From: Verrucomicrobiota bacterium
Lineage (GTDB): Bacteria > Verrucomicrobiota > Verrucomicrobiia > Verrucomicrobiales > DEV007
Assembly: GCA_020630975.1 (NCBI GenBank)
Contig: JAHDID010000024.1
Location: 1-64,000 of the forward strand
Direction of reading: 5' to 3'
Length of the DNA stretch: 64,000 bases
In this document: piece after piece, positions 1 to 49,632 of the stretch
How positions within the stretch are numbered: the stretch's first letter is position 1
Layout of the letters: every line of letters begins with the position of its first letter
Translations under genes and position numbers: made by a program
The notes under the pieces: generated by a model
The model's input: the letters and a program-made list of their open reading frames with translations, nothing else
What the model was told of the DNA's origin: nothing
The model's database searches: none

Positions 1-817
1 AAATCTGTGTAATCTGTGCTCCATCTGAGCTAATCTGTGAATAACTGCGGAGACTCTAGGTGGATAAGGGTCGAAGGTTATTCAATGGTTGAAAATAGCC
101 CACTCCCGGTGCGGGATGCTTTGGCTGTTGGTTGTGTTATTGATTCACAGATTTATTGGGGATTGGACACAGATTACACAGATTTTTTTGCTTGGTTGTG
201 CAGATATTTTTGGTGGGGCGATGGGTACGGTAAATCTGTGTAATCTGTGCTCCATCTGAGCTAATCTGTGAATAACTGCGGAGACTCTAGGTGGATAAGG
301 GTCGAAGGTTATTCAATGGTTGAAAATAGCCCACTCCCGGTGCGGGATGCTTTGGCTGTTGGTTGTGTTATTGATTCACAGATTTATTGGGGATTGGACA
401 CAGATTACACAGATTTTTTTGCTTGGTTGTGCAGATATTTTTGGTGGGGCGATGGGTACGGCAAATCTGTGTAATCTGTGCTCCATCTGAGCTAATCTGT
501 GAATAACTGCGGAGACTCTAGGTGGATAAGGGTCGAAGGTTATTCAATGGTTGAAAATAGCCCACTCCCGGTGCGGGATGCTTTGGCTGTTGGTTGTGTT
601 ATTGATTCACAGATTTATTGGGGATTGGACACAGATTACACAGATTTTTTTGCTTGGTTGTGCAGATATTTTTGGTGGGGCGATGGGTACGGCAAATCTG
701 TGTAATCTGTGCTCCATCTGAGCTAATCTGTGAATAACTGCGGAGACTCTAGGTGTTTAAGGGTCGAAGGTTATTCAATGGTTGAAAATAGCCCGCTCCC
801 AGTGCGGGATGCTTTGG
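1..817. repeat. 231-bp tandem repeat array, 3 full units plus a partial fourth
   Basis: Units begin at 1, 232, 463 and 694 with an exact period of 231 bp. The first three are almost identical; the fourth carries several changes and loses similarity after about 817. The array may continue to the left of the window. Each junction holds a perfect 18-bp inverted repeat: CACAGATTACACAGATTT at 168-185 faces AAATCTGTGTAATCTGTG at 232-249 across 46 bases, and this recurs in the next units. A smaller hairpin (TCCCG-GTG-CGGGA) lies inside the unit and is broken in the fourth copy. Each unit contains a 68-codon open frame starting with GTG, but it simply recurs with the repeat, has no recognisable domain, and I do not call it a gene. 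There are no variable spacers, so this is not CRISPR. Confidence 0.95.
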
Positions 818-861: not shown

Positions 862-2364
862 TTATCCGTCGATCCAGGCTTTGGAGCGGTTGACCGCTTT
901 TCGCCAATTGGCTTTGGTGGCGGTTAGATCTGGGTTTTGTTTTGAGCTGGGCTGAAAGCGGTCTCGCATGGCCCAGTAGCTAGCGATCTCTTGTTGGTCT
1001 TTCCAGAAACCTGTGGCGAGGCCGGCTAGGTAGGCGGCGCCTAGGGCTGTGGTCTCGGCGACCTGGGCGCGGACCACGGGGACATCTAGTAGATCGGCTT
1101 GGATCTGCATGAGGAGTTCATTTTGGGAAGCACCGCCGTCGACTCGCAGCTCGGTCAGCTCGATGCTGGCGTCTCCTTGCATCGCTTCGAGGAGGTCCAT
1201 GACCTGTAGGGCGATCGCTTCTAGTGCGGCTCTTGCGAGATGGGCCTTGCTGGTGCCACGCGTCAGGCCTTGGATCGAGCCACGGGCGAAGCCATCCCAG
1301 TGTGGTGCACCGAGGCCGGCGAAGGCAGGGACAAAGGTGACTCCTCCGCTATCGGGGACGGAGGCGGCTAGGGCCTCGATCTCTTCTGCGCTATCGATGA
1401 TGCCTAGCTGATCGCGTAGCCACTGCACCACCGCGCCGCCGATGAATACACTGCCCTCGAGTGCGTACTCGATCTGGTCGCCGAGCTGCCAGGCGATAGT
1501 GGTGAGTAGATCGTGCTGAGAGGTGATCTGCTCGGTGCCGGTATGCATCAGTAGAAAACAGCCGGTGCCGTAGGTGTTTTTGGCCATACCCGCCTGGTGG
1601 CAGGCTTGGCCGAATAGCGCTGCCTGCTGATCGCCAGCGATACCGGCTATGGTGATCGGCTCGCCAAACAGGTCTGGGCTGGTCTCGCCATAGCACTGAC
1701 TACTCGGACGGATCTCGGGCAGGACAGATGGCGGGATATCGAAGAACTCAAGGAGCTCGGTGTCCCACTGCGCGGTGTCGAGCCGACAAAGCATAGTGCG
1801 GCTGGCGTTGCTGACATCGGTCACGTGGTGGGAGCCGCCGGTGAGCTGCCAGATTAGCCAGCTATCGATGGTGCCAAAGGCTAGCTCACCGGCTTCGGCA
1901 CGTGTGCGGGCCCTCGGTGTGTGGTCGAGTAGCCACTTGAGCTTTGAGGCCGAGAAGTATGCGTCGACGACGAGACCAGTGCGTTTTTGGATCCACTCGG
2001 CTCGACCGGTGTCGGCGGAGATGGTTTGGCAATACTCCGCGGTGCGCCGGTCCTGCCAGACGATGGCATTGGCGACAGGCTCGCCGGTCTGCCGATCCCA
2101 GAGTACGGTGGTCTCACGCTGGTTGGTGATGCCGATGCCCGCGATGTCGCTGGGCTGTGCTCCGGCCTCTGCTAAGGCAGCGCGAGCGGTCTCCAACTGG
2201 GTCTGCCAGATCTCGGTGGCATCGTGCTCGACCCAGCCAGGTTTGGGGAAAATTTGCTGAAATTCCTGCTGGCTGCTGGCGATCAGATCACCGCTGTGGT
2301 CGAACAGGATCGCTCTGCTACTGGTGGTTCCTTGATCGAGCGAGAGTATGTATTTGGCGGACAT
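862..2364 (-). CDS. glpK: Glycerol kinase
   Basis: Catalyses ATP-dependent phosphorylation of glycerol to sn-glycerol 3-phosphate in the cytoplasm, the entry step of glycerol use. The 500-residue product matches the usual FGGY-kinase length. The N-terminal phosphate-binding segment DQGTTSSRA (residues 10-18) and the downstream [11 protein letters not shown] segment are characteristic of GlpK, as are [11 protein letters not shown] and the C-terminal ATPase-domain segment [14 protein letters not shown]. The start is ATG at 2364, giving [14 protein letters not shown]. No glpF, glpD or regulator gene is next to it, so it appears as a single gene here. Its 3' end lies only 45 bp from the end of the 231-bp repeat array. 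A short hairpin (CTCACC-ATTCC-GGTGAG, 2462-2478) lies upstream of the start; its role is unknown. Family assignment is very secure. Confidence 0.97.
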
Positions 2365-9479: not shown

Positions 9480-12400
9480 ATGATCCCAAAATCCGAGACC
9501 GAACAAAGTCGCAACTGGTTCTTTCAGCGCTGCAGATTTCATGCCAATGCGAAGCGCAATCAGCGAGGTAGAAAGAAGCGGGGAAGAAAGTCTTCTAGAC
9601 CTCTTTTTGCCGAAATCTTGGAGCCTCGGGTTTTGTTCTCGGGTTCACCAGTGCCAGAGGTGGCGGTCGATGCGACACAGCCGGTGCGTAGCGAACTGAT
9701 CACTCCGGTAGATGGCGAGGGCACAGGCACACGCCAAGGGCCGAATCTGAATGGATCGAATGCTAACGCTGGAGCGGGTGAGGCGAATGAGGAGATGCTG
9801 GAGGAGCACTTCACCTTCACTGTGGAGTTTGAGAATGCAGCCACAGGAGGCGGCAACACAGGCTATGGCCCATACATCGATGTGGTGGTGAGCGAGGCGG
9901 TGGAGATCGATGCGCCGGCTCGTGAAATGGGTGAGAGCACGGATATCGAGCTGCTGGTCAGCGATACGCGAGCCATCGCGCTGACCAACACTCAAGTCAT
10001 CGGTAAAGTCTACAATGCTGAGGATCTCGCGATCGCCGATGAAGCGGTTCAGCAGCTGACCGACCCAGGCTATTCCTCTGCGTGGCGTGCCTACGGCACC
10101 GATAATGTGTGGGTTAGGCCGAGTCTTTCCTTCGCAGGGGCAGCAGCAGCAGGGCCCACAGCATCGTCGCCGGGAGGCAATCCGGTTTTCAATCAGCATC
10201 CTCTGCTAGCGGGGCATCCGTCTGGCCGACTGGATGCGAATGATTATCAGGCAGGGGATAAGTTTTATGTCGCCCGCTTGCCGGTGGGTTCTATGACTGA
10301 GGGGCAATCGCCACTGAACATTCGGTTCACAGGGCGATTGGACCAAGATCCCCATGGGGATTCGACTTACGGGGCTAAAGAGGGGCAGGCAATCGACATT
10401 CGTGCGCGTGGCGGATTCTACCTGGGTTCCGATCCAGAGGATAATCCAGATGAGGATGCGCCGATCGCCCACCTGGAGAACCATGGGAACCCGCCTGCTA
10501 ATAACAACCTGTTCGTCAGCGACGAGATCATTCCGCGAGTGGTCGAAGTGGTCAAGCGTGGCCCAGACGACACGGCGCTGGGGCCTAGCGATGTGATGAA
10601 CTTCCAGATCGAGGTCGACATCGCGGCGGGTCAGACCGTGGATGACCTGGTGCTTGAGGAGATCATTCCGGCTGGATTGGTGTATGTGCCCAACTCGCTG
10701 CAGATCAGTTTTGAGTACATGGAGGGGATACCCACCGTAGACAACGTGGTACAGCCGACTGGTGATGGTACGCTGAGGATTGAATTTGGTGAACTGACTG
10801 CAGGTTCAAACTTCGATCCTATCACCAACGACTACCTGCAGGAGCAGGAGGAGGATTTGTTTTGGAACACAGCAGGTGGACCGGACTTCCGTGGGGATAA
10901 TGTGCGCCATGCGAATATTTACATCACCTATCAGGCGTATGCTGGTGATCCTAGTGTGTTGGGTGGTGCCACCATAGGGAATCCCAATTACAACGAGACC
11001 ACAAATCGCTTGGCAGTCGATCTGACGACAGATGCCTCGGTGACGGGAAACTTCACTGATGCAGAGGGCAACGTGGTCGTCGTGTCTGATGATGATACTG
11101 GATCGGGAGTTAACAATAACCAGCGTGTCGACTCGGATTCTTGGACCGAGGACGTGTCAGGTCTAATCGGCCGCAAAGTCTTGACTGCTCGCTATGATAA
11201 TGGCGGTAACTTGGTGTCGGCAGGCCCCAACACGCGAAACTCTATACCCGGCGACATCATCGAGTATACGCTGGAGATGAGCGCTTCTGATTTCTTGTCT
11301 TTTGATCAGCTCAATTTTCAAGATTATCTGGATGATGGACTGGCTTATTACGAGAACACCAGTCTCAACGTCGGTGACTCCGTCACTTCGACGACTACGT
11401 TCCAGTCGTACTGGGCGCTTTACCAGGATGGCGTGGATGTCGTAGGTGCGACTCGCGCCGGATTTGGTAGTGAATTGACCTTTGAGGATGTTAGTACTTG
11501 GGAAGTATTTACCTCGCCACATATCGAAGCCAATGTGGCGATCGGTAATAACTACGTGAATAACATTCACGAGCCAGCTAACTTTGGTAAGGACCTGCTG
11601 ACATGGAACCTTTCCACTGAGGCTTTGATCGAGGATGGTGCGACATCGACTGCTACCATCGCCAGTGGTTTGGCACAGATAGCTCTGGCGAATGCGGATA
11701 GTCTTTTGGTCGATCTCACACCAGAGCGTACCACAGCGATTTTTGATGAGACCGTGACCGTCAGCCCTGTGGTAACCAACCTATCGTTTGAGGTAACTCT
11801 AACTGATGGGGCTGTTTTGACAGTGGTACCAGACCCAAGCAATGCGCAGAATCTCTTGGTCGTTCAAAATGTGACTAATGGTGATCCCCTAGTCACAGCC
11901 TACACCGTGGCATGGACGGCAGGAAATGCTCCGGACTTCTCAGCGGATAGTGTAACCGGTGAGTTTCAAGTGTTTGCCGATGGAGTGGCGATCGATGTGA
12001 CGGCTGCTGAGGCGACGTATGATCGGATTCATCGTTTTGGTGCGTTGGTCGATCGCGATGTCGATGGCGATGGCACTGTGAGTGCGGAGGAATCCACACT
12101 CGTCGGTGGTGGTGCATCGCTAGATCGGAATAACGATGGTCTTGCCGATGGTTTTGATACCGACTCGGATGGTGAGCTAGATGTGCAAACTCACTTGTCT
12201 GGAAATATCGATGGGGGCTTTCGCTTTGATTATGATGCACCAGCAGATTTTGTGGTCGATGCACAGACTCATGGAGTCGATCCTATTTCCTCGGATGGTC
12301 GCACGCTGAATCGCGATATTGATCCTTCGGACAAGCTTTTCATCCGGTTCTTTGCTCGTGTGGAGGGCTCGCAGGTCAACGAGAGTGGCACTGGTGATGA

Positions 12401-15400
12401 TGACGTGAATCTACGTGACAGTCTGTATAACAACAGCATCGCTGAAGGTGTGCAAGTGATCGGTGGCGAGACGATTGGCACCGATTTTATCCCAACCGAC
12501 AACGATGAGTTGGTGCGCGATGCTGATCAATGGCATTTCGAGGTAGAGGGCGGACAGTTCCGTAAATTCACTGTAGCCGTTAACGGTGAGAGTATCCTAG
12601 ACGCAGACCCTAATGATGGAGTAACCGATCAGTTTGATAACGTGACTGGCGACTTCGGCGCTGATGGAAATGTGGATAACCCTGTGCTCAAAATTGGTGA
12701 TACCATCACCTATCGTCTGCGGGCTGAGTTGCCGCTGGCTCAGGCCGAGAATTTGTTTATCGAAGACTTTCTGCCGCTACCGGTTTTTGATGTGTCGACA
12801 GACTATCCGAATGGGGCGGTACAAATGGTTACGGGGTCCTCTGCAGCGCAGTACGCTGGAGATGATGCTACAGGCATACCTGGAGTGGGGCAGTCTGTGC
12901 TGGGTAATGCAATTTCCTGGACCTATGGCCCTGATCACAACATACCTGATGATGTGATCCAGGCGAGTAATGGAGATCCAATTCCAGATCTTTTGACCTA
13001 TCAGGGGACGGTGACTGACTCTACCTCTGCGCCACCGTTTTCGGTAACCTTTAATCCGAACTCAAATTCGGTTGTTTGGAATTTTGGTACTATCTCTCAA
13101 GATATTAATTCCGCTAATCCTGGCGCGGTGATTGATATATTGTTTACTGTCGAGCTCAATGCTCAGCAGTTTAGTGATGATTTCGAGCTGAGTAATACGG
13201 CTCGCACTAACTTCACAAACTCAAACGATGAGCAGCGTGGGCCAGGTGCAGATATCACTTCGGTCGATCTGCTGTCTCCGGATCTCAATATTCGCAAGGG
13301 TGTCATCGCAGTGACGCCGGGCACTTCACTGGATGGTCCAGAACTGATTGGTAATGACGACGGTGAGCAGTCTGATCTGGCGTTTTCGGGTCCGGATGCC
13401 GAGTTTGCAGACGCGGATCACTCCCAGACTAATAACACCTTTAATGCACTGACGCTCGGTGCGGGTAATACTGAAACGATCGAGGATGAAGTGCTGGTAG
13501 AGATCGTGAATGGTGCGCTGTCGGCTCATCTAGATCGCTCCAATATTGTTCCGGGCGAGCCGGTAACACTAGAGATCACGCACAACGGTACAGTAGTAAC
13601 ACTCACCGATAACGGTACTGCACCCATCGGTAACTTTACGGTGGGCACTTTCCCAACCGGTGGTGGGAATCAAATCGTAGTCAATAGTGGCACGATCAAC
13701 TACCAGACCGGAGAGATCATCATCGATGCCGATGTGACCTCCGAGTACACTGCAGATTTTGGTGCGGCAAATAACCAACTTAGTGTAACAGGCGCAACTG
13801 TTCTCAACCAGGTCAACAACAACGTCCTGACTTCGGACAATCTGTTTACCGGATCTGGAGTGAGCTCAGCTCGCACTGTGATACCAGGGTCTGTGGAGCT
13901 GACTGTCGAGGATACTGGATTTACTGATTTCCCCACCATCCGTGACACAGATCACAACGGCGATGGTGCTAATGGTGCGCTCTATCTGATTAACTTCGAT
14001 TCTGGTGGTAGTCCGGTTAGCTCGTCTCTGATAGGGCGGATCAACTACGTAACTGGAGACTACAATTTCCGTATCCAGCTGGCCACGATCGATGTGCCTG
14101 TATCGCTTAGTGCAGACTTCGATCATGCTGGCCAAACGGCTTCTACTATCACTGGAACAGCGGTAGACGGGGTGAGTAACTTTAACTCGGGATCTGCCAT
14201 CCTGCCTGGTACGGTGAATATCGATCTGAATGGTTACATCATCGTCGACAATGTCGGCGCGCCTGCTGGTCAATTGTTCCAGCAAGGCGGGGACGGCACG
14301 CCCATCGGTACTATCGACTACCGTACGGGTGCTATCAGTTTCTCAGCAGTCGATAGTGTGCCACTCACCGCTGACTACACAGCCAATTCTGGTCCAGGGA
14401 TCATCACCAGTGAGTATATTCACGGAGTCAATGACTTTACCGGTGAGACACAGTTAGAGAATTTTAGCGACTTCGTGGATTCGAATGTTCGCAATGTGGA
14501 TGCAGGCGATGTTTTGACCTACGGCATTTTCGTCGAGAACGTTGGTGCGGAGCGTGCCTTTGACATCAAGATCGCCGACGAAATTTTGGCGGGCTTGGAC
14601 ACGCTGAATGCGGATCTATCGACATCGCTGACCGGAGCGGATTCAGCGTCGGATCTACTGGCGGCCCTGAACTTGCAGATTTGGCGTGGCGACGGTACCG
14701 CTCTAGCTGAGGGAACGGACTACAATGTCGAGTTCACCCCAGGGACGAACGTGTCTGCTGATATGACGGGCCTGCTGACGGGGACTCAGGCTGTGCCGGG
14801 CACATTGCCCGCTAGCTCTGTGATCATCCCAGGGTCTTATGAGATCATCATCGATGGCGATGTGGGTGGATCGATAGCCCACCAGCTGCGGATATTCGAC
14901 GAGCCGGTTCTCAATGCCACACAGGGATTGGATAATGGTGGCGTAGGACGCTTGCATTATCTGAACCCATCTACGGGCTCGATGCAACAGGTGGGAACGA
15001 TCAATTATGTAACCGGTCAAATCACTTGGAGCAGCGCGATTGTGAATAGCGACGGCACAGATGTGACGGGTAATGCGGCCACCATCAACTATGATGTGGC
15101 GGAACTGTTGAGCGCAAATCGGGGTGGGCCAGTTACTTTTGGTTTGGGTAACACACCGATGGCTGAATCTGAGACGAATGGGGCCTCAAAGTCGTCTTTC
15201 CGTACTGTGGTGGATCAGTCGGAGCTGGTGCCGGGTAGTGTGACGGTTTTGGTCGATTATTTTGGACGAGGCGAGCTAGAATTTCGTGATGATATGCAGG
15301 GCGGATTTACACTGGTATCAGCCCCTGGTATCGCAGCGATCACGAACGTCGATGGATCGATCGATTACGAAAACGGCGAGGTAAACATCTCTTGGGACGA

Positions 15401-18400
15401 TACCTGGGATGGTGCTGTGACCTATAAGGCAGCTAATACCACAGGCGGTACGGCTACCACTCTGCATCTCCAGTTTTCTGATAGCCGTGCGCTGCATAAT
15501 ATCGGTGGTACGGTAACAGCGCCGTCAACTACGTCTACGCCGACAGGCCCATTTGATACGGCAGTCTATGTGCCGACAGGTGGGGCGATCATTCCGGGAT
15601 CGTTCGATCTGGTGATCGCTCAGGAGGCTGGGGTAACAGCGGAAGATAGGCACTATCTGGACGATGGCCGTGGCAATCTGGTAAGGGACGACAATCAGGA
15701 TGGGGCCGTCGGTGCGTCGGAGAATTTTATTGTCGGTGCCATCAATTACTCGACCGGAGAGTTTTCTCTAACTCACCAGAATAGCGATCGAGATAATGGT
15801 ACCGCCGCTATTGGTACGCTGAATTATGAATTAGCGGATACTACGACTCTATCCGATGAGTCGGAAACCGTCTCTCTAGTCGACGGCTCTCTGACAGGGC
15901 ATACTTTGGGCACGCCGGCGGGGCAATTTATCCTTCCTGGCACGGTAAGCATCACCAATCTCGAAGGAGGCACGCCACTACACGAGACGATCACTGATGA
16001 CGGTCTGGGCAACCTAGTGATTATCGACAATCTCGGGCAAGAGGTGCGGGTCGGTACGGTTGATTACTCAACCAGTGATATCGATATCGATTATGCTGAG
16101 TTGCAAGATATCGCGTTGGACTATGCTACGACCAATGCTTTTCGTCTGCACTTCAATAATGCGGCAGGAACGCTCGAGGCAGGACGAACTGCATCGAGTG
16201 AGCTGCCTGACAATGAAAGTGGCTCTAATGTTCTCGTCATCACTTACGATCTGGAGGTTGGCGACGAGTTTAATCCGAATGAAGAGTTCGCTAATACGGC
16301 TGCGATCGATGGCTACTCTGCCACAGCGGGTGGGGCGAACGTGTTGATCGATAACGGTGGTGGCGCAGTGAATCTCGAGCGTCCAACTGATGCGGCGACT
16401 GCCGAGGGGACTGATGCGACTGTGCAGAAGCGCCTGATGTCGACGAATCAGGACCACACGACGTTTACCACCTTCCAGGCGGTTACCATCGAGTTTAATG
16501 ATGGTTCAGGCTTGAATGCCGCTGACTTTACCATCAATAATACGGCCACAGGTTCCTTCGATGCGAATCAGCAAACGAACCTCAATACCATCAATCTGGA
16601 ATCAGCAAATGCGATTGGTGTGGAGGCGTTCAGGCATCGGAACACGTCTCCGACGATTTATCTGGGCGATAATGTTACTATTAACCTGAACGAAAATACT
16701 GGATTCTTCGATAGTACGGATACTACTAGGTATTCCGCGACTTCAGACGCTAGTGATGGGATCACTCAGGAGGGTATCATCTACATCCCGGGTGTGACGG
16801 ATAATCCTGATTTGTCTATCCTACAGATCGGATCGGTCATGGAGAATACGCCATGGGATGGGACGGACCCAGCCTTGGATGGTATCGGCACTTTTGGTCA
16901 GTACCGTGGCTCTGTGGGTCTGACGATTGATCCCGCGTCGGTAACCGACGCTAATTCTAACTCAATCGACCCCGCAGGCCTCGCTGATGATGGCTCAGGG
17001 CTGCGCGAGGCGACTCAGCTGATCGCCGGCACAAACACCGTATCGTCTCCGGCGATCGATGACAATTTTGTTAGTCCTTTCTCGACTGTCTTTACGATTC
17101 CCGACTACCCGACTTATACGTGGGGCGATGGCACTACAGTCGGTGCCTTCATGAATGGCTTCGACATCATTGTCGATCCTGGTGGGCCGAACGAGGCGCA
17201 CTATTCGACTAACTCTCGCGACCCATTGCAGCCTGGTAATGTCGATTTTTCGACCTTGGAGCCAGGTAACCTGCGGAATGATATTTTTGCCAAGGGTGGC
17301 AATCTGCCTTCTGGTATCACACCGGGAACGATAGTAGGCCACCAAGATATCGATCTAGATGGTGAAGCGGATCTAGACGAAGATGGTCAGATTCGATTCC
17401 TAGAGAGCATTAACCCGAATGGGGATAATGTGATACTCACCTATATCTACGGAGTACCGGAGGCGTCGGTTTCTTACTACAATACTGAGCAGCCAGTGGC
17501 ACTGGATTGGGAAACCAATTTCGAATGGACTGTGGTTGGTTCTGGCCGTGATGGTGGTAATACCACTCAGGGTATGTCATTCGTCATTCAGGCTGATCCG
17601 GATGGCGCTAATGCGATTGGTCTGACGAATCCAGCTGAAACTCGGTTCACTGGTGTGTCGAATCACGGTGTCCGCGGAGACAGTGGTTTCAACCTCGAAC
17701 CTCATATTGAGATCAAGTTTGACTACGATTGGAACCGCGACGGTGACGGTAATGTCGGAGAAATCGTGATTGCCCGAGATGGCGCGACGAACGGTAGAAC
17801 TGATCTCCAGCATGTGGAGTTTCCGTTTACCAATCTGATCAATGATAACATAGCTGGTGCACAGGGTGACCATGTTCGAGGTGGTACGGGGGATACTAGT
17901 CTTGACACTACCAACCGCGATACATCGACACCACAGTGGCACCAATTCAATGCCGCGAACTTCGATGCGAATATTCAGTATGACTCGGGCAACGAGACGT
18001 TGACCATCGTTGTTAATGCTTTGGACGATACCGGTACCGTTATTGCTACCTCGGGCCCGATCGTGCAGACAAATTTTAATGTGGTCGATCTATTGGGATC
18101 GGGCTCAGCATTCGTCGGGTTTGGTGCGTCTCCATCGCTAAACAATGGTTCGGCAAACCTGATCACATCGTTTGATTTTACCGGCACCTTCTCGAATGAT
18201 CAGCACCACCAAAATGTGGGCACTCAAGGAGAGGACGTGGCGATCGGTGAAATCGTTGATTTCGCTCTGATCGTGGATGTGCCGGAGGGCACCACAGAGC
18301 ACTTGTCTGTGACCGATATTTTACCAGCCGGTCTCGAGTTGCTCGACGTCGAGATTATCACGACACAGGCGGCTAGTGGCGGCCTGCTGGATGCAGACTT

Positions 18401-21400
18401 TGGCGGCACAATCGATCCGAGCCGATTCACGGTCGATATCGGTACGACGACAACGAATCTGACTCGAGCTCAGGTCCAGACCCAGAATCCTAACGGACCA
18501 GAGGAAATCGTCATCCGCCTAGAGCAACCGATCGTCAATAATCATGACGCTGTCCAAGACTCGACTGGCGATGATGAGACGGATGTGCCGGTTAGCTTCA
18601 ATAACGACAAATTTCTGATTCGGGTAAGCACTCGAGTTCTAAATGGAGTCGATTACGACCCATTGGCGGATGGCGTATTACCAGACACCGTAGGGGCAAC
18701 ACCTACGGAGGTGACCGATGCCGCGAATGGCAACGTCGGCTTGAATACCGATCTGTCGGACAACAGTCACGACCCTACTAATCTGGATGGTCATGACCAT
18801 GCAGACCTGCTGAACGATGTACGGCTTCAGTACCTCGATGGTGACGGTGCCGATCTGGATACGGATGCTGGTGGCACGCAGCCACTGGTGACAGTGGAGG
18901 GGAACTCGGTAGAAATCGATCTCGTCGAGCCACAGCTGAAGATCAATAAAGAGCTGGTCAATACGTCGCGTCCTGGTGGTTCGATCGTACAGGTCGGCGA
19001 GTCGGCTTTCTTCGTAGTCGAGATCGAGCACACGCAGTTGGCCGAGGGTGATGCGGCTCAGAGCACGGCAGATGCGTTCAATGTGAATATTTTCGATAAC
19101 CTGACGGCTGGGAATGGCCTGCTTGGAGCGGCGTTGAGTAATGGCGAGGCTCGCATCGTGAAACTGGAAATCCTCAGTGCTCCAGGCTACATCAACGGCG
19201 GAGACCCCGGTGCTCTATACGATCTGACTGGCCAGTTGCCTGTCGTGAGCAATCCCGATGGTATCTTTACCAGTAATATCGCAGACTACACCAGCGGTGC
19301 AGAGACCGGACGTGGTATGCCTGACGGTAGTGCTTTTGATTTAGCTACCAATATCCAGAACAATATTCTCGATTTCACCCTCGATCGTCTGGATTTAGGA
19401 GATAAGTTTGTGTTTGCCTATGAAATAGCTATCGATAATCCTTCGTTGGTGAATAGTGATCTGGGTGGCGTCGGGACTAATGATGTCGAGAATGAAGCTC
19501 ATATCACCTACTACAGCCTACCGGTCGATGGTAATGGTGATAATGTGATTGACTCTGGGCTGGAAGAGATCCGTGAATACACAGCATCTGACAGCGCATC
19601 GATCCAAGTCGTCGAGAATGATGTGCAGATCAATATCGTAAAAGGTGTGCTCGCGGTAAACTCGGACGGTAATGCTCTGACCGATTTCACCACCGATGCC
19701 ACATCTACTGGTGCTGGTACTGGTACGATTACTAGCGATCCATGGGCTGCAGCGGGAGAGTCTGGTCATGCCACGGGTTTCCCTATCAGCGATGGCACTT
19801 TCTTCAATCCTGGTCCGATCACAATTAACGGCACCATCATAGGCGAGACAAACCCTGCCTTCAATTCGCAGTATCTCGAGGTGAGTGCCGCAGATGGGGC
19901 GACCTTGGCTAATGGTGTCAACCGTGTGCTGCCAGGCTCTGTGACGCTATCGATTCTCACCGATCCAGATGGCGATACCACAGCAGAAGTGAACTACCGT
20001 GTCACGGATCGTTTTGGTGATGGCGATCTCTATTATGAACGCCGTATCGGCACTGATGGTAGTGGTGATCCTATCTGGCGCACGATCGATATCGGTGACG
20101 GCGCTGTAGGTAGTATCGACTACGTCACAGGCGACTATGCTTTCAATATCCCAGAGACTAGTACGGCGAGCTTCCGTTTCAGTGAGTCGCTCCGTGGTGA
20201 TGTCATCCGAGTGGTCTCAGGCACTTCTGGCACGGTGGCGTTGCCACAGCCATTGATCGTGCCGGGGACGTTCGAGGTGTTTGCTGATGGTTTGACGACC
20301 ACCCCTCTTTACACCGAGCCGGCTACGCCAAACGGCACCTTAGTCGATGGCGGCGGCACTCAGGTGGCTTGGATAAATTACGCCAAAGGTGAAGTGACAT
20401 TCCTGTCCGGTGTGCCTTCGGTCCCAGCGGCTACGATATCCTACACCTATTCAGCGACGTCTGAGGTCGCGGCTAATGATGAATTGCCTGATGCGACCAA
20501 TGGCGCAACGACGGGCACGCTTTCATCGGCAAAGCAGTTCACCGTGCCTGGTTCCTACGAGGTGGTGACTGGGGACTTACGTATGATGGATGTCTTTGCG
20601 GATGGTCGTTTGTTTGTCGTCGATTCTTCAAACAACCCCATCCTGTTGGATAGCAGTGGCAATCCGACGACAGATCCGGCTTTGGCCATACCTGTGGGCA
20701 CTATCCCTGGTGTGAGTATCAGCACATCTGGCGTGACCTATCCTGTGGTGGCTTCGGTGAGCTTCGATCTGCCGACGGCTATCGCAAATACTGGCAACAC
20801 GACAGCTTATGATAACTTGATCCGCTCCCAGTCTATCACAGCGGACTATCAAACCTACGAGGCTAGCACTAACCAGAGTCTAACCAGTGAGGTATTGCAC
20901 GCTGGTAGTGGCACGACCACTCAGTGGAATGAGTTTATCGACCGCGACCTGACGGAGGCGAATGGTGGTGTCAATGCAGGCGATATCGTTACTTTCGGTA
21001 TCTTTGTCGAGAACAGTGGCAGGGATTCCGCCTTCGACTTGGTGCTTACCGACGGGTTATTTGATTTTCAGGGCAATGATGTGCTCTTCGACGGAGCGAC
21101 ACTCGGTGATTTGGCCAATGGGACCATTGACGCCAGCGTGGTAGCTAGCGCGATCAATCTACAAGTCTACCGCGGAAATGGCGAGGCGCTCACCTATACG
21201 CTAGACTACGTCGGAGGCGATCTCCAGATCACGATCGACGAGGAGCTGGACGGTGCGAATCCACTGGAGCGTATCTCGGGTGAGAATGTTTTCATGATCA
21301 CTTACGACGTCGAGGTGCAGGATAGCTTTGGCGCAGGTGACTTCATAGGGAATGTCTCTCGCGTGGAATCTTATGCCGCAGCAGACGGTGGTGGAGCGAT

Positions 21401-24400
21401 AACTGTCGACCAGACAGGGGCGAATCTGAATGTGTCTACGACGGATTCGGCTTTCGTCGAGGGACAGGGTGTCAGTATTACCAAAGAGATTGTTTCAACA
21501 TCGGAGGACTCTACGGCACGGTCGGTAACGGGTATCGATGCCGCTGGTGCACCAGGAGCCGTATTTAACTTGGAAAGTCATTTCGGTCTGCAGGCAGGCT
21601 CCGTCACTCTCACAGATGGTGGTCAGAGCTTCACAGATGATGGCAATGGCTTCATCGTCGAGACATTAACTTCCGTTTCAGATAATGGCACCGATACCAT
21701 CACTCTTGTCGGTGACGAGATCGTGTCCGGTGCGATCAGTAATGGAACCTTTGACTTGGTGATAGGCTGGGATGGAACCAATACTATCCTCCAGCAGGAT
21801 GATGGCACTGGCACCAATACTCTAGTGACTGTGGCGACTGGCACCGTGGTCGGTGGCAACACCGTATTCACCTTCCCAGCGACAGCGCCATACTCAGGCA
21901 GCTATCAGCAGAGCCTAGCCGCAGTCGATTATGTCAATGGCACTGTGACTCTAAGCGATACGGCGAATGCAGGTGCGACATTCAGCTACACGACCGATAG
22001 CACGGGTAATACCACTCAGGATGTGGTAGCTGGTGAAGAGGTGGTCTATCGCCTCGCGGTGACTGTGCCTGAGGGGACGACTAATGGGCTGGTGCTGACC
22101 GATTCGATTCCTGATGGGCTCGAAGTCCTATCTGTATCTGTAGATACTTCAACGTTCGTTGGTACCGTTCCGGATATCGCAGTGGCAGGCGATACCTTCA
22201 CCGGCACTCTCAATGCAGCCGGGCCACTCGCTGTCGACGGGGCTGTGCAGGGTGCTGAGGACTTGGTCTTTACTGTGGGTAATCTCACGGTGGGGCACGA
22301 TCAGGACACTTCCAATGACCAGTTCGTCATTTTGGTGACTACTAGAGTGCAGAATGGATTGGAGTACAATCCGGTGGCCAATCTGGGCGATCCAGCCATC
22401 ACCACTGTGGATGATTTAAATAACACAGGCGAGGCAGCGTCTCTGTCGGTAGGGGATATCCTCACCAACACGGTCAGCTACACCTACAATGATGCAGCAG
22501 TCGGCGGTAGTCAGAATGCTTCTGGCTCTGCTAGCACGGGGAGTGCGTCGGTGGATGTGGAGTATGTCCAGCCCGAGTTGACCTTGGCAAAGGTCGTCGA
22601 CTCGCCAATCGTAGAGGCTGGTACCGTCGCTACCTACACGCTATCGATCGGGCACGATACTGCGTCTGCGGCTGATGCTCATGGCATCCACATCCTCGAC
22701 AAGCTTACCGAGACTCCGTTGGTCGATCCCGCGTCTCCTGCGGCAGCGGCTTTCAATCAGGGCAACTTCGTGAGTATCACCGTGACAAAGACACTGGCTG
22801 ATGGCTCGACCGAAAGTGTGACGATCAATAACATCGACTCGGTGGCCAATACCTACACCACCACTCCGGCGAGTAGCCCTCTGATTATTGCTAACAATTC
22901 AGACTTCACTACCGACAAGCTCGATATCCTTATCGATTCACTGGCTGTAGGGGAGACGCTAGCGGTGACTTACCAGGTAGAAGTCGGCGTGGAAAATGGG
23001 GCGGTGACCGACGCCATGGTGCTCGATGACAATAGCTCCATCAGCTCCGCTCCATCGACTGACGACCCAGGCACGGATATCAATAACACCGTGCACATGG
23101 GATGGTTCTCGACCACGATCGATCCGAGCGACCCCAATCCTGAGGTGGCTCAACTGCAGCTGACCAGTTCCGCATCGGTGGAGGTCGTCACCTCTACCGA
23201 TCTCCAGATCACTAAGACTGATGGGCAGGTACTGCGTCACCGTGATGAGGTGTATGTCTACGATCTGACGGTCACCAACACCGATCGAGTCGATTTGGGT
23301 AATGGCGTGGATATCGAAGCCAACCCCGCAGCGATCGATGTGGTGGTGACCGATGTCCTACCAGAGGGCTTGTTGTTCGATCCATTTACGTCTACAGCGA
23401 GCGCACTCGGTGGCGGCGGAGATATTCTTTCGATTAGTTATCCAGGTGGTGCCACACCCGTGGTAGCGGCCAACTTCGTCGGCGCTACTCTGGCGGCTCA
23501 GCCTAACCCAGGCGATTGGGCCTACGATGCGGCGACACGAGAGATCACTCTGTTTCTTGGCAATCTGTCGACGGATTCAGATTTGAGTGGTCAGGACAAC
23601 CCTAACATCGTGCAGATCCGTATCGAGACTCAGGTCGACCCAGTGTTGGACGCTGACCTGCCGGGGACTACGAGTCTGACTAATACCGCTACCGTCAATC
23701 GTATCGGGCGCGACACCGTAAGTGGAGATCTGATCCTCGATCGTGTCATAGCCGATCCTAATAGTGAGGACAATACCGCCTCGGATACCAATATCGTATC
23801 AGTCGGCGATCTCACTGTGACAAAAGATGATGGTACTCAGCAGCGTGAGGAAGGGGAGTCGTATGAGTATACCCTGACTGTGAGCAATGCAGAGGTCCAT
23901 ACCGATGGTATCCTCGCGGGCATCAGTGGCTCTCCTGCTACGAATGTGGTGCTGGAAGATATCCTGCCAGAGTTTCTTGAGTTTAATGAGAATGTGCTAG
24001 TGGTCACCGATAATAATACAGGTGCTAGCTTCAGCATACTAAAGACCACATCGGCGACACCTCAAATCGGTCAATTTACCGTAGTGGAGGAAGCTGATGG
24101 CTCGACTCGTATCACCATGTATCTCGGTGGTATGTCGCATACCTCTGATACGAGCCTGACGAATAGCGATGGCAATACACTGGCTTATCATTTCTCCAAT
24201 TCTCTCAGCTTACAGATCCCGGTGAAGGTTCTCGATGAACTGCCTCAGACCTTCTCAGGTACAGTGGAGATTCTCAGTCGGGTGACGGTGACTTCTGATA
24301 CTGACCGCGATGGTGCGTTCGACATCAATCTCACTCCGGAGAATGATAACGATCAAGATATCGATGAGTTGATTTTGGGCTCAGATTTCATAGGAGGTAG

Positions 24401-24926
24401 CCAGATTTTCCAAGGCTTCCGTCTGATTGGTAACTTTCAGGGCGTGTCGGAAGATGATGACGCCCCTGAGGAGCAGCCGATTTTGACGATGATGCCATTT
24501 TACTCTGGCTCAGCCGATCCAGGGACCGTCTTGAATATCAAGATCGTCGGATCCGAGGGTGGTGCTTTCCCAAATGGCGAAGTGACAGTCGTGGCAGATG
24601 CAGCGGGTGGCTGGCTGGCTAAGTTGCCGGGTTTGATTCTGACAGATGAGCCCCATGTGGTGGTGATCACACAGACGGCGCCGGCTTGGGATCAGAATCC
24701 TGAGAGCCATGGCTACAATCTGCGTACCTACTTCGCACCGGCCATAGCCAAGACTCACACCCAGGTCGAGGAGCTCACTGTAGGCACGGTCATGGGGCGT
24801 CGCCTATCATCGGTCTCTCTGGAGAACTCTCTGGAATCTAGCCGCGAGCCAAATGGCAACATCAACGAGGACTGGCGTGCCAAGAATTACGAGTACTTAC
24901 CGAAATCTGTAATCGCGGGGATGTAG
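9480..24926 (+). CDS. Giant LEPR-motif surface protein 1 with DUF11-like, lectin-like and repeat domains
   Basis: 5148 residues. A basic N-terminus (about 1-40) leads to LEPRVLFSG at 47-55, the LEPR-x-LL-type motif found at the start of large Planctomycete/Verrucomicrobial secreted proteins. DUF11-like domains recur along the chain (for example VEVVKRGPDDTALGPSDV near 353 and ITKTDGQVLRHRDEVY near 4575). An aspartate-rich, EF-hand/thrombospondin-3-like stretch lies near 853-903 (DRDVDGDGTVSAEE). About ten degenerate PGS...GxI(D/N)YxTG repeats lie mainly between 1350-2213 and 3473-3773, with one or two near 4020-4180. An L-type-lectin-like domain spans about 2678-2905. The last 170 residues contain GFRLIGNF, PFYSG..DPG and AD.AGGW, related to the ends of giants 2 and 3. 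Start ATG 9480 has no Shine-Dalgarno. Likely a secreted or surface adhesin; export route and ligand unknown. Confidence 0.9.
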   Translation: MIPKSETEQSRNWFFQRCRFHANAKRNQRGRKKRGRKSSRPLFAEILEPRVLFSGSPVPEVAVDATQPVRSELITPVDGEGTGTRQGPNLNGSNANAGAGEANEEMLEEHFTFTVEFENAATGGGNTGYGPYIDVVVSEAVEIDAPAREMGESTDIELLVSDTRAIALTNTQVIGKVYNAEDLAIADEAVQQLTDPGYSSAWRAYGTDNVWVRPSLSFAGAAAAGPTASSPGGNPVFNQHPLLAGHPSGRLDANDYQAGDKFYVARLPVGSMTEGQSPLNIRFTGRLDQDPHGDSTYGAKEGQAIDIRARGGFYLGSDPEDNPDEDAPIAHLENHGNPPANNNLFVSDEIIPRVVEVVKRGPDDTALGPSDVMNFQIEVDIAAGQTVDDLVLEEIIPAGLVYVPNSLQISFEYMEGIPTVDNVVQPTGDGTLRIEFGELTAGSNFDPITNDYLQEQEEDLFWNTAGGPDFRGDNVRHANIYITYQAYAGDPSVLGGATIGNPNYNETTNRLAVDLTTDASVTGNFTDAEGNVVVVSDDDTGSGVNNNQRVDSDSWTEDVSGLIGRKVLTARYDNGGNLVSAGPNTRNSIPGDIIEYTLEMSASDFLSFDQLNFQDYLDDGLAYYENTSLNVGDSVTSTTTFQSYWALYQDGVDVVGATRAGFGSELTFEDVSTWEVFTSPHIEANVAIGNNYVNNIHEPANFGKDLLTWNLSTEALIEDGATSTATIASGLAQIALANADSLLVDLTPERTTAIFDETVTVSPVVTNLSFEVTLTDGAVLTVVPDPSNAQNLLVVQNVTNGDPLVTAYTVAWTAGNAPDFSADSVTGEFQVFADGVAIDVTAAEATYDRIHRFGALVDRDVDGDGTVSAEESTLVGGGASLDRNNDGLADGFDTDSDGELDVQTHLSGNIDGGFRFDYDAPADFVVDAQTHGVDPISSDGRTLNRDIDPSDKLFIRFFARVEGSQVNESGTGDDDVNLRDSLYNNSIAEGVQVIGGETIGTDFIPTDNDELVRDADQWHFEVEGGQFRKFTVAVNGESILDADPNDGVTDQFDNVTGDFGADGNVDNPVLKIGDTITYRLRAELPLAQAENLFIEDFLPLPVFDVSTDYPNGAVQMVTGSSAAQYAGDDATGIPGVGQSVLGNAISWTYGPDHNIPDDVIQASNGDPIPDLLTYQGTVTDSTSAPPFSVTFNPNSNSVVWNFGTISQDINSANPGAVIDILFTVELNAQQFSDDFELSNTARTNFTNSNDEQRGPGADITSVDLLSPDLNIRKGVIAVTPGTSLDGPELIGNDDGEQSDLAFSGPDAEFADADHSQTNNTFNALTLGAGNTETIEDEVLVEIVNGALSAHLDRSNIVPGEPVTLEITHNGTVVTLTDNGTAPIGNFTVGTFPTGGGNQIVVNSGTINYQTGEIIIDADVTSEYTADFGAANNQLSVTGATVLNQVNNNVLTSDNLFTGSGVSSARTVIPGSVELTVEDTGFTDFPTIRDTDHNGDGANGALYLINFDSGGSPVSSSLIGRINYVTGDYNFRIQLATIDVPVSLSADFDHAGQTASTITGTAVDGVSNFNSGSAILPGTVNIDLNGYIIVDNVGAPAGQLFQQGGDGTPIGTIDYRTGAISFSAVDSVPLTADYTANSGPGIITSEYIHGVNDFTGETQLENFSDFVDSNVRNVDAGDVLTYGIFVENVGAERAFDIKIADEILAGLDTLNADLSTSLTGADSASDLLAALNLQIWRGDGTALAEGTDYNVEFTPGTNVSADMTGLLTGTQAVPGTLPASSVIIPGSYEIIIDGDVGGSIAHQLRIFDEPVLNATQGLDNGGVGRLHYLNPSTGSMQQVGTINYVTGQITWSSAIVNSDGTDVTGNAATINYDVAELLSANRGGPVTFGLGNTPMAESETNGASKSSFRTVVDQSELVPGSVTVLVDYFGRGELEFRDDMQGGFTLVSAPGIAAITNVDGSIDYENGEVNISWDDTWDGAVTYKAANTTGGTATTLHLQFSDSRALHNIGGTVTAPSTTSTPTGPFDTAVYVPTGGAIIPGSFDLVIAQEAGVTAEDRHYLDDGRGNLVRDDNQDGAVGASENFIVGAINYSTGEFSLTHQNSDRDNGTAAIGTLNYELADTTTLSDESETVSLVDGSLTGHTLGTPAGQFILPGTVSITNLEGGTPLHETITDDGLGNLVIIDNLGQEVRVGTVDYSTSDIDIDYAELQDIALDYATTNAFRLHFNNAAGTLEAGRTASSELPDNESGSNVLVITYDLEVGDEFNPNEEFANTAAIDGYSATAGGANVLIDNGGGAVNLERPTDAATAEGTDATVQKRLMSTNQDHTTFTTFQAVTIEFNDGSGLNAADFTINNTATGSFDANQQTNLNTINLESANAIGVEAFRHRNTSPTIYLGDNVTINLNENTGFFDSTDTTRYSATSDASDGITQEGIIYIPGVTDNPDLSILQIGSVMENTPWDGTDPALDGIGTFGQYRGSVGLTIDPASVTDANSNSIDPAGLADDGSGLREATQLIAGTNTVSSPAIDDNFVSPFSTVFTIPDYPTYTWGDGTTVGAFMNGFDIIVDPGGPNEAHYSTNSRDPLQPGNVDFSTLEPGNLRNDIFAKGGNLPSGITPGTIVGHQDIDLDGEADLDEDGQIRFLESINPNGDNVILTYIYGVPEASVSYYNTEQPVALDWETNFEWTVVGSGRDGGNTTQGMSFVIQADPDGANAIGLTNPAETRFTGVSNHGVRGDSGFNLEPHIEIKFDYDWNRDGDGNVGEIVIARDGATNGRTDLQHVEFPFTNLINDNIAGAQGDHVRGGTGDTSLDTTNRDTSTPQWHQFNAANFDANIQYDSGNETLTIVVNALDDTGTVIATSGPIVQTNFNVVDLLGSGSAFVGFGASPSLNNGSANLITSFDFTGTFSNDQHHQNVGTQGEDVAIGEIVDFALIVDVPEGTTEHLSVTDILPAGLELLDVEIITTQAASGGLLDADFGGTIDPSRFTVDIGTTTTNLTRAQVQTQNPNGPEEIVIRLEQPIVNNHDAVQDSTGDDETDVPVSFNNDKFLIRVSTRVLNGVDYDPLADGVLPDTVGATPTEVTDAANGNVGLNTDLSDNSHDPTNLDGHDHADLLNDVRLQYLDGDGADLDTDAGGTQPLVTVEGNSVEIDLVEPQLKINKELVNTSRPGGSIVQVGESAFFVVEIEHTQLAEGDAAQSTADAFNVNIFDNLTAGNGLLGAALSNGEARIVKLEILSAPGYINGGDPGALYDLTGQLPVVSNPDGIFTSNIADYTSGAETGRGMPDGSAFDLATNIQNNILDFTLDRLDLGDKFVFAYEIAIDNPSLVNSDLGGVGTNDVENEAHITYYSLPVDGNGDNVIDSGLEEIREYTASDSASIQVVENDVQINIVKGVLAVNSDGNALTDFTTDATSTGAGTGTITSDPWAAAGESGHATGFPISDGTFFNPGPITINGTIIGETNPAFNSQYLEVSAADGATLANGVNRVLPGSVTLSILTDPDGDTTAEVNYRVTDRFGDGDLYYERRIGTDGSGDPIWRTIDIGDGAVGSIDYVTGDYAFNIPETSTASFRFSESLRGDVIRVVSGTSGTVALPQPLIVPGTFEVFADGLTTTPLYTEPATPNGTLVDGGGTQVAWINYAKGEVTFLSGVPSVPAATISYTYSATSEVAANDELPDATNGATTGTLSSAKQFTVPGSYEVVTGDLRMMDVFADGRLFVVDSSNNPILLDSSGNPTTDPALAIPVGTIPGVSISTSGVTYPVVASVSFDLPTAIANTGNTTAYDNLIRSQSITADYQTYEASTNQSLTSEVLHAGSGTTTQWNEFIDRDLTEANGGVNAGDIVTFGIFVENSGRDSAFDLVLTDGLFDFQGNDVLFDGATLGDLANGTIDASVVASAINLQVYRGNGEALTYTLDYVGGDLQITIDEELDGANPLERISGENVFMITYDVEVQDSFGAGDFIGNVSRVESYAAADGGGAITVDQTGANLNVSTTDSAFVEGQGVSITKEIVSTSEDSTARSVTGIDAAGAPGAVFNLESHFGLQAGSVTLTDGGQSFTDDGNGFIVETLTSVSDNGTDTITLVGDEIVSGAISNGTFDLVIGWDGTNTILQQDDGTGTNTLVTVATGTVVGGNTVFTFPATAPYSGSYQQSLAAVDYVNGTVTLSDTANAGATFSYTTDSTGNTTQDVVAGEEVVYRLAVTVPEGTTNGLVLTDSIPDGLEVLSVSVDTSTFVGTVPDIAVAGDTFTGTLNAAGPLAVDGAVQGAEDLVFTVGNLTVGHDQDTSNDQFVILVTTRVQNGLEYNPVANLGDPAITTVDDLNNTGEAASLSVGDILTNTVSYTYNDAAVGGSQNASGSASTGSASVDVEYVQPELTLAKVVDSPIVEAGTVATYTLSIGHDTASAADAHGIHILDKLTETPLVDPASPAAAAFNQGNFVSITVTKTLADGSTESVTINNIDSVANTYTTTPASSPLIIANNSDFTTDKLDILIDSLAVGETLAVTYQVEVGVENGAVTDAMVLDDNSSISSAPSTDDPGTDINNTVHMGWFSTTIDPSDPNPEVAQLQLTSSASVEVVTSTDLQITKTDGQVLRHRDEVYVYDLTVTNTDRVDLGNGVDIEANPAAIDVVVTDVLPEGLLFDPFTSTASALGGGGDILSISYPGGATPVVAANFVGATLAAQPNPGDWAYDAATREITLFLGNLSTDSDLSGQDNPNIVQIRIETQVDPVLDADLPGTTSLTNTATVNRIGRDTVSGDLILDRVIADPNSEDNTASDTNIVSVGDLTVTKDDGTQQREEGESYEYTLTVSNAEVHTDGILAGISGSPATNVVLEDILPEFLEFNENVLVVTDNNTGASFSILKTTSATPQIGQFTVVEEADGSTRITMYLGGMSHTSDTSLTNSDGNTLAYHFSNSLSLQIPVKVLDELPQTFSGTVEILSRVTVTSDTDRDGAFDINLTPENDNDQDIDELILGSDFIGGSQIFQGFRLIGNFQGVSEDDDAPEEQPILTMMPFYSGSADPGTVLNIKIVGSEGGAFPNGEVTVVADAAGGWLAKLPGLILTDEPHVVVITQTAPAWDQNPESHGYNLRTYFAPAIAKTHTQVEELTVGTVMGRRLSSVSLENSLESSREPNGNINEDWRAKNYEYLPKSVIAGM

Positions 24927-47570: not shown

Positions 47571-47592
47571 CCAAAGGCTCGATACTGCGGAT

Positions 47593-47924
47593 GGGCGTTG
47601 CGGGCCACTCGCTAGGCGCTCGCCGCCACATTTTGATTGCTTCGATTAGGTATATTGAGGGAGTAGAAAAGTGGCGGCGAGCGTCCAGCGAGTGGAGTTT
47701 CAACGGGCAAAGGCAATGCCTGTAGAGGAGTGGCGGATGGGCTTTGCGGGCCACTCGCTAGGCGCTCGCCGCCACATTTTGATTGCTTCGATTAGGTATA
47801 TTGAGGGAGTAGAAAAGTGGCGGCGAGCGTCCAGCGAGTGGAGTTTCAACGGGCAAAGGCAATGCCTGTAGAGGAGTGGCGGATGGGCTTTGCGGGCCAC
47901 TCGCTAGACGCTCGCCGCCACAGT
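47593..47924. repeat. 146-bp tandem repeat with long internal hairpin, two units plus partial third
   Basis: The core GGGCCACTCGCTAGGCGCTC begins at 47602, recurs at 47748 and again (one base changed) at 47894, an exact period of 146 bp. Each full unit contains two 25-bp arms that are almost perfect reverse complements: 47605-47629 and 47671-47695 in the first unit, separated by 41 bases. The arms differ at two or three central positions only. The third unit stops after its left arm, next to the end of the glycerate kinase gene. Open frames that cross the units repeat with them and are not credible genes. The structure resembles a REP/BIME-type or MITE-like palindromic element that has been amplified in tandem. 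Confidence 0.93.
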
Positions 47925-49150: not shown

Positions 49151-49585
49151 ATGAATACTGTAGATGAGCCAAAGCTAGATATGTCGTCCCTCGTGGATGT
49201 GAGTTTCCTACTGTTAATCTATTTTCTCGTCTCCTCGACGCTGGAGCCCAGAGAATCTGATATCGGTATGACGATGCCGGATTCTATAGGGCAGGTACAT
49301 CCGATGGACCTGATCATCGATGAAATGCGCATCGATCTGGAGGCGAATGGAGACATCCGTCTCAATGAGGAGCTACTTGAGACTGGGCCCCACAGTCGCG
49401 AGCTGCCGATATTGATCGATCGACTGGCCACCTATGTGGATAGCGCGGAGGTCGCCGACGTCGAGCCAAAGGTGATCCTGGCGGCGAATGATGCGGCAAA
49501 TGGGCAGCGCTTTGTGGATGTTTTGAATGCTTTAGCGCACCAGGATGTGCAGATACGAAATGTGGCGTTGGCTGGGTTTGAGTGA
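49151..49585 (+). CDS. exbD: ExbD/TolR-like biopolymer transport protein
   Basis: 144 residues from ATG 49151. A short cytoplasmic N-terminus is followed by one transmembrane helix, LVDVSFLLLIYFLVSSTL (about 14-31), with the conserved membrane aspartate at D16 that carries protons in ExbD/TolR/MotB-type stators. The periplasmic part has the usual beta-alpha fold: an IDLEANGDIRLNEE strand pair, PILIDRLATYVDS, KVILAANDAANGQRFVDVLNAL and a final strand. No exbB/tolQ or tonB gene is adjacent, so the partner lies elsewhere. It would energise outer-membrane transport or envelope maintenance. The stop codon runs directly into an 8-bp microsatellite. Confidence 0.85.
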   Translation: MNTVDEPKLDMSSLVDVSFLLLIYFLVSSTLEPRESDIGMTMPDSIGQVHPMDLIIDEMRIDLEANGDIRLNEELLETGPHSRELPILIDRLATYVDSAEVADVEPKVILAANDAANGQRFVDVLNALAHQDVQIRNVALAGFE

Positions 49586-49632
49586 GGAGGAGAGGAGGAG
49601 AGGAGGAGAGGAGGAGAGGAGGAGAGGAGGAG
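49584..49632. repeat. GAGGAGGA microsatellite (8-bp unit, about six copies)
   Basis: Immediately after (and touching) the stop codon of the ExbD-like gene there is an uninterrupted purine tract of GAGGAGGA units, roughly 49 bases. Because the period is 8, copy-number change would shift frames, but no gene reads across it in this window. Confidence 0.92.

Follow-up and report, generated by a model that had tools for sequence, protein, structure and literature searches.

Among the described systems that most closely resemble the repeats analyzed here, REP/REPIN-RAYT systems and BIMEs also comprise dispersed intergenic palindromes, inverted pairs and mosaics, with a nuclease-type gene located between copies of the same palindrome. 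The enzyme of the REP/REPIN-RAYT systems is of the HUH/Y1 type, with a GTAG tag on the palindromes, whereas the GxxExxY genes, to which the repeats of this study appear to be related, encode PD-(D/E)XK (Cas4-like) proteins and are bounded by locus-specific heptamer arms that carry no tag; a further difference is that one arm type of the GxxExxY elements is common to many phyla. The MITEs of insertion sequences are similar in architecture, with gene-less copies that carry terminal inverted repeats occurring beside gene-bearing copies, but for the GxxExxY elements there is no known transposase, no target-site duplication was found by eye, and the arms vary by locus but keep a similar architecture. 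The TIRYT/TIRtrons (PMC3733652) are similar in that a single gene is enclosed by inverted repeats and further repeats, some self-complementary, stand at other places with no gene; they differ in the enzyme superfamily and in their shared motif GGGGWSAS. GxxExxY (TIGR04256) is the same family as PDDEXK_3 (PF13366) of Pfam, and the name lines of both entries name the protein only, with no arms or gene-less hairpins described. In the open-licence part of PubMed Central, no paper was found that links the arm sequences to GxxExxY, PF13366, PDDEXK_3 or TIGR04256, and the titles retrieved there with the 11-13-base forms of the arms have nothing about bacterial repeats.

The first base of the window, that is, of the whole stretch of 64 000 nucleotides analyzed, is also base 1 of contig C144 in a draft genome (7.14 Mb, 158 contigs), and the window opens with a tandem repeat (Table 1). 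Tandem Repeats Finder places this repeat at 1-817, with a period of 231 bp, 3.5 copies, 99% match and a score of 1599, in agreement with the array of 231-bp units described in an earlier note on this DNA. The near identity of the units claimed there is borne out as well: unit 1 differs from unit 2 at one position and unit 2 from unit 3 at none, and the last, partial unit shows four differences in its first 124 positions and no match beyond. The perfect 18-bp arms, CACAGATTACACAGATTT and AAATCTGTGTAATCTGTG, are indeed separated by 46 bp and form a real stem that is extendable to 25 nt at 88% complementarity. A 16-bp core of the arm, with at most three mismatches, has eight matches in the window, seven of these within the array, compared with 0.46 expected, and the folding of one unit is far stronger than that of shuffled sequences (z of -5.3 for DNA and -4.3 for RNA). 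The window has no match in Rfam at gathering thresholds. The kinase gene next to the array is presumably that of a glycerol kinase. Because the array begins at the contig end, the 3.5 units are the assembled part only; the array is open at window base 1, as previously noted, but this edge is an assembly cut at base 1 of the contig. Contig C121 likewise terminates exactly at the 18-bp arm, and with both contig ends seen falling exactly on it, the arms are suggested to be break points of the assembly.

Table 1. Tandem array, its component modules and the adjacent gene (window coordinates)
Feature	Position	Strand	Remark
231-bp tandem array, 3.5 units	1-231, 232-462, 463-693, 694-817 (partial)	.	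left end is the contig end
Right half of one more module A hairpin	1-39	.	truncated at the contig end
Module A hairpin, copy 1	146-270	.	left arm 146-185, loop 186-231 (46 bp), right arm 232-270
Module A hairpin, copy 2	377-501	.	
Module A hairpin, copy 3	608-732	.	
REP-like module B1	289-355	+	equivalent copies at 58-124 and 520-586
Terminal module B2	751-817	+	diverged last B copy, 4 differences
FGGY-family carbohydrate kinase	862-2364	-	array some 45 bp past the stop codon

Each 231-bp unit consists of one long hairpin (module A, about 125 bp) and a REP-like module B. The left arm of module A contains three CACAGAT heptamers (at 146, 168 and 177, with spacings of 22 and 9), and the 22-bp gap holds only a degenerate stretch; the right arm contains four heptamers at spacings of 10, 11 and 9 bp, three of them CACAGAT and one CTCAGAT, which deviates from the CRCNRAN consensus at base 2. 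Each arm of module A comprises three exact CACAGAT and one degenerate heptamer. With these irregularities, the arms follow the design found around the GxxExxY genes discussed below, in which each of the two inverted arms has 3-4 CRCNRAN heptamers placed 8-10 bp apart. The right arm has, at its outer end, the minus-strand sequence TTATTCACA (267-275, and also at 36, 498 and 729), in agreement with the DnaA box consensus quoted in PMC6006769; the fit is probably due to chance because the outer arm ends differ in other lineages.

Module A is not confined to the array. The genome-wide search for the arms that the earlier note had proposed found the 16-mer core ACAGATTACACAGATT dispersed over the genome, at 24 exact sites and, when up to one mismatch was allowed, at 42, with zero matches for the reversed-pattern control. 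The hairpin had been tied to the unit junctions. The stem is present there, as a copy of a hairpin that is interspersed and occurs in many phyla; module A is a dispersed element and not a by-product of the junctions. Single modules A between B-type modules are present on contigs C34 and C37, with 98.7% identity over 156 bp, and related arrangements of A and B are found on C49, C3, C121 and C106. The B-A-B and A-B-A orders at C34, C37, C49 and C3 amount, in arrangement only, to a BIME-like mosaic of alternating palindromic modules. Half-elements also occur, single or inside-out.

We consider it likely that the array arose by tandem amplification of a gene-less, MITE-like module A located between REP-like B modules, and that these hairpins are relatives of the GxxExxY elements. 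Recent expansion or homogenization of the array, proposed in the earlier note, is supported by the near-identical internal units and by the occurrence of the same hairpin, at another place in the genome, as a single copy with a B-type module on either side. Unequal recombination between two B copies that flank one A would turn B1-A-B2 into (B1-A)n-B2. Module B2 is read here as the original right-hand flank of the array and, because it is not identical to the B copies inside the array, expansion of B1-A-B2 by unequal exchange between B modules appears to be the simplest history, drawn from one array the left part of which is missing.

Comparable hairpin arrays are present in other genomes. The congener G017 has three (149 bp x 4.7, 145 bp x 2.7 and 145 bp x 1.8), the 149-bp array beginning 30 bp from a GxxExxY match; the congener G020 has an array of 347 bp x 2.7, an Opitutaceae bin one of 214 bp x 3.4 and an Asticcacaulis genome one of 266 bp x 1.9. 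The spacers of these recurrent arrays are unrelated. Two of seven tandem-repeat rows with a period of at least 100 hold an A hairpin, where two of the seven rows represent the same array and the loci had been picked by A; no weight is placed on this count. Because the same hairpin recurs elsewhere in its own genome and in other genomes, the element is independent of the assembly of this array. The collapse or mis-assembly that the earlier note had named as grounds for refutation may affect the copy number.

A scan for ACAGATTACACAGATT followed, after 30-60 bases, by its reverse complement, with one genome per species, gave at least 116 exact A-type hairpin stretches in many phyla, among the matches listed. 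The phyla with exact hairpins include Bacteroidota, Acidobacteria, Chloroflexi, Planctomycetes and Verrucomicrobia, and among the matches listed, the hosts are Bacteroides and relatives, Asticcacaulis, Aminicenantes, Terriglobia, Ardenticatenia, Caldilineaceae, Phycisphaerae, Laspinema, Nitrospira, Haloferula, Opitutaceae and Spartobacteria. Within the genus of the window genome, the exact 16-mer core was detected in one of 32 other genomes; with the 18-mer at up to three mismatches, more congeners match, but the reversed control also scores in several genomes. The bases outside the searched arms pair with each other more often than shuffled partners do, out to about six positions (124 matches, with four dropped from this comparison, two for incomplete flanks and two as duplicates), and the identity of these outer bases varies by lineage, such that 120 of the 124 hairpins are distinct. 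In Bacteroides stercorirosoris, eight of the nine fetched copies are near-identical and stand at different places. A recurrent neighbor gene within 1.5 kb of the gene-less hairpins was also sought, by an all-against-all blastp of 414 ORFs; the resulting clusters looked, by sequence alone, like common families, and this candidate was rejected.

The clue that connected the hairpins with a gene came from the congener G020, where the repeated 347-bp unit takes in A-type hairpins together with the beginning of a GxxExxY gene. Among the genomes with A or A-like repeats, 30 of 31 have GxxExxY matches above the cut-off, compared with 10 of 26 A-poor relatives and none of 14 control genomes. The A-poor set consists of 26 relatives picked for at most one hit, the A-rich set includes eight added relatives with 8-36 hits, not always exact, and other relatives with 6-8 hits were omitted; in draft genomes, the counts of GxxExxY, and likewise of Y1_Tnp, depend on completeness. 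The link itself emerged when the arms were compared within each locus instead of against one fixed sequence. For this comparison, 112 of the 124 matches were used, with up to 200 bp of each flank; 12 matches, some of them fragments or at contig ends, were omitted, including one in G017 that was judged by eye only. The flanks match each other as inverted repeats with a score of 38 or more in 75 of the 112 loci, compared with 31 of 3331 shuffled partners, and fall below this score in the remaining 37; in direct orientation, 18 of the 112 loci reach it. Among 432 control ORFs, nine score at least 38. Two of these nine turned out to be GxxExxY genes (L132 544-915 and L072 7246-7638), found by the inverted-repeat score alone, and the other seven adjoin CACAGATT hairpins, which had served to select these loci. 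The choice of genomes by A does not underlie the result because the arms also show in A-poor relatives, where 10 of 20 GxxExxY loci have an inverted-arm score of at least 39.

The arms of the GxxExxY loci are built mostly of three or four CRCNRAN heptamers each, at spacings of 8, 9 or 10 bp. Under the fixed labeling rule (at least four CRCNRAN in two 130-bp flanks), 79 of the 112 loci are labeled, compared with 71 of 2240 shuffles. The heptamers differ between loci, with 29 kinds counted, and tend to match within a locus. The commonest is CACAGAT (12 loci), the type present in the window. Arms of the CACAGAT type flank the gene on both sides in Bacteroides cellulosilyticus, Bacteroides fragilis, an Aminicenantes genome and an Ardenticatenia genome (L255, L257, L264 and L269), and also at L322 and L338, which belong to the genomes with loci L078 and L082. 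The hairpins of the window have 46-bp loops with no gene between the arms, so that they can be classed only as gene-less relatives of these units. None of the four GxxExxY loci of the window genome has CACAGAT arms, and a search for CACAGATT around these four copies returned one 8-mer at one locus. The link between the array and the gene thus rests on the shared arm design and, with no CACAGAT-armed GxxExxY locus found in its own genome, module A is an orphan here, one that would have been mobilized earlier or in trans. On contig C126 of the same genome, a gene-less hairpin with CAGACAGGATTAAC arms (locus L023, from 1381) has the arm type of the own GxxExxY locus L040; possibly, the two form a gene-less and gene-bearing pair within one genome.

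The GxxExxY proteins are about 120 amino acids long and, as judged from conserved positions and a structural model, belong to the PD-(D/E)XK nuclease family, with a Cas4-like fold and putative cleavage activity. Among 111 proteins (one of the 112 was left out on account of a stop codon), the active-site columns are kept in 107 (D), 98 (E), 103 (K), 98 (Q) and 103 (Y) sequences, and 91 have the full D-x-ExK pattern as formulated here. The AlphaFold2 model (pLDDT 93.7) has as its best structural match SSO0001 (4ic1), with a Foldseek E-value of 4e-4, a Z-score of 9.1 and an rmsd of 4.7 over 102 residues; we take SSO0001 to be a Cas4 protein. The sequence search of the PDB gave nothing significant (best E-value 0.87). 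In PADLOC, the G020 protein has no match and the B. fragilis protein has three weak ones (E-values of 0.003-0.007), two of these to Cas4 models; in the phage collection, the B. fragilis protein has no match at an E-value of 1e-5.

The protein sequences are associated with the arm sequences. Across groups, the proteins from loci with the same heptamer are, on average, more similar (identity of 0.445, 115 pairs) than those from loci with different heptamers (0.380, 2340 pairs), a difference equaled in 0 of 2000 within-group label shuffles, in which single genomes were treated as groups of one and kept their label. The CACAGAT-type protein of a congener is 71% identical to a protein from a proteobacterial bin, and paralogs within one genome average 40%. 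Base 7 of the heptamer is associated with residues 9, 88, 107 and 109 (residue numbers follow the stretch of the L313 protein that was matched), with z-scores of 7.4-8.0 against within-group shuffles; overall, 21 of 448 base-residue tests exceed 4, compared with at most three in shuffles (78 of the 79 labeled loci were used, and loci outside the nine named groups were treated as groups of one, with labels kept). Where base 7 is G, the residues are mostly I9, T/S88, L/V107 and K109; where it is T, they are mostly M/F/Y9, N88, K/S107 and E/Q109. Rather than a recognition code, this association could reflect descent in a few clades, for example, two old subfamilies, that carried the arms along.

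Occupied and empty sites were found for two elements, one GxxExxY unit and one gene-less hairpin, both distinct from the copies in the window. The fabD and fabG genes of Sphingomonas parapaucimobilis are separated by a GxxExxY gene with inverted arms; in S. paeninsulae and Sinorhizobium meliloti, fabG directly follows fabD, with no GxxExxY unit. In B. fragilis S82, a gene-less hairpin is present that is absent from the orthologous place in strain Q1F2. By eye, no target-site duplication was seen at the fabD-fabG insertion or among the B. stercorirosoris copies. GxxExxY genes are also found in eight plasmid records; among the four that were fetched, two have arms (scores 45 and 42) and two lack them (13 and 18). 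In a Bacteroides finegoldii plasmid, an armed GxxExxY gene lies between radA and the gene of an FAD-dependent protein.

A mechanism can be envisaged in which the GxxExxY nuclease would bind the repeated heptamers of its own arms and would cut at the heptamers or at the extruded hairpin; repair would then spread both the gene-bearing units and the gene-less hairpins that have the same arms. On the broader scale, it is conceivable, with the odds somewhat short of even, that the GxxExxY genes and their arms make up a separate class of minimal mobile elements, in which a Cas4-like nuclease of about 120 amino acids recognizes, and co-evolves with, re-writable arms and spreads gene-less hairpins that pile up into arrays. 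If so, the hairpins common to many phyla would be footprints of this nuclease. The GxxExxY family, named only for its motif, would gain a candidate function as a self-spreading nuclease or homing-like element, and the CACAGATTACACAGATT-armed hairpins of many bacterial phyla, for which no assigned origin was found, would gain a candidate source. Several dozen proteins, each encoded between copies of its presumed target, would offer a natural protein-target series for reading the recognition code.

The same array could be an ordinary REP/BIME array, with a RAYT (HUH/Y1 transposase) having spread A as a palindrome of the REP type and with amplification as in BIMEs. This appears unlikely, even though a known REP system is present in the genome, as indicated by its own RAYT (NF047646, 83.2 bits against a cut-off of 80) that lies between inverted REP-like C modules. 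Also in its favor, A is seen by eye at several loci amid the REP-like modules B, C and D, and clusters of tandem REP units with flanking DNA have been described (PMC3733652). The own RAYT is flanked by module C, not by A. In 9 of 22 A-bearing genomes, Y1_Tnp was not found, and in other genomes, A (at most three mismatches) is found at 4 of 30 Y1_Tnp loci and at none of the 30 on both sides. Furthermore, A is longer than REP, contains repeated heptamers and lacks the tagged short palindrome (20-40 bp, with GTAG or CGTC), whereas B, C and D fit the pattern of GTAG plus hairpin by eye. The RAYT was accordingly rejected as a general mover of A because it carries C and because of the genomes that lack Y1_Tnp. 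The RAYT gene itself (L161 1429-2127, minus strand, contig C57) is open, encodes 232 aa with the NHVH and YIRNNP motifs and has inverted REP pairs on both sides, and the N-terminal end of the protein reads through a REP.

Tandem amplification of a relative of the GxxExxY elements, the interpretation favored here, has also to be weighed against the possibility that the hairpins are maintained mainly for what they do for the host at gene ends, for example, terminating transcription, protecting mRNA or binding a DNA-bending protein, with mobility being secondary. The location of the hairpins is compatible with such a role: they lie at a median distance of 23.5 bp from gene 3' ends, within 60 bp of 97 of 120 3' ends compared with 42 of 94 5' ends, and the share located between divergent genes is smaller (15 of 107) than among the background gaps (66 of 208); the element of B. 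fragilis S82 stands, by eye, where strain Q1F2 has a terminator-like hairpin. Such placement is, however, also expected from selection against promoter hits, the stem is not followed by a U-run, and 31 of the 32 congeners lack the exact 16-base core, so that a host role as the main explanation seems improbable. By eye, the terminator-like hairpin at this place (L086 5600-5960; L239) is seen in some other Bacteroides in addition to Q1F2. Still more doubtful is a false joining of repeated A and B modules at the contig end. Such an artefact would agree with the position of the array, with the two contigs that stop exactly at the 18-bp arm and with the two identical units, but the unit junctions inside the contig agree with each other, and similar arrays with other spacers are present in other assemblies.

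Elsewhere in the window, a second tandem array of hairpins is located at 47587-47922, with a 146-bp unit in 2.3 copies and the arms CCACTCGCTAGGCGCTCGCCGCCAC and GTGGCGGCGAGCGTCCAGCGAGTGG; an arm of this array holds a CACTCGC/CGCTCGC repeat. A perfect 8-bp repeat, GAGGAGGA, in 6.1 copies, is found at 49584-49632. Three giant ORFs on the plus strand follow each other in succession (9480-24926, 25462-37935 and 38383-44862), encoding 5148, 4157 and 2159 aa, respectively.
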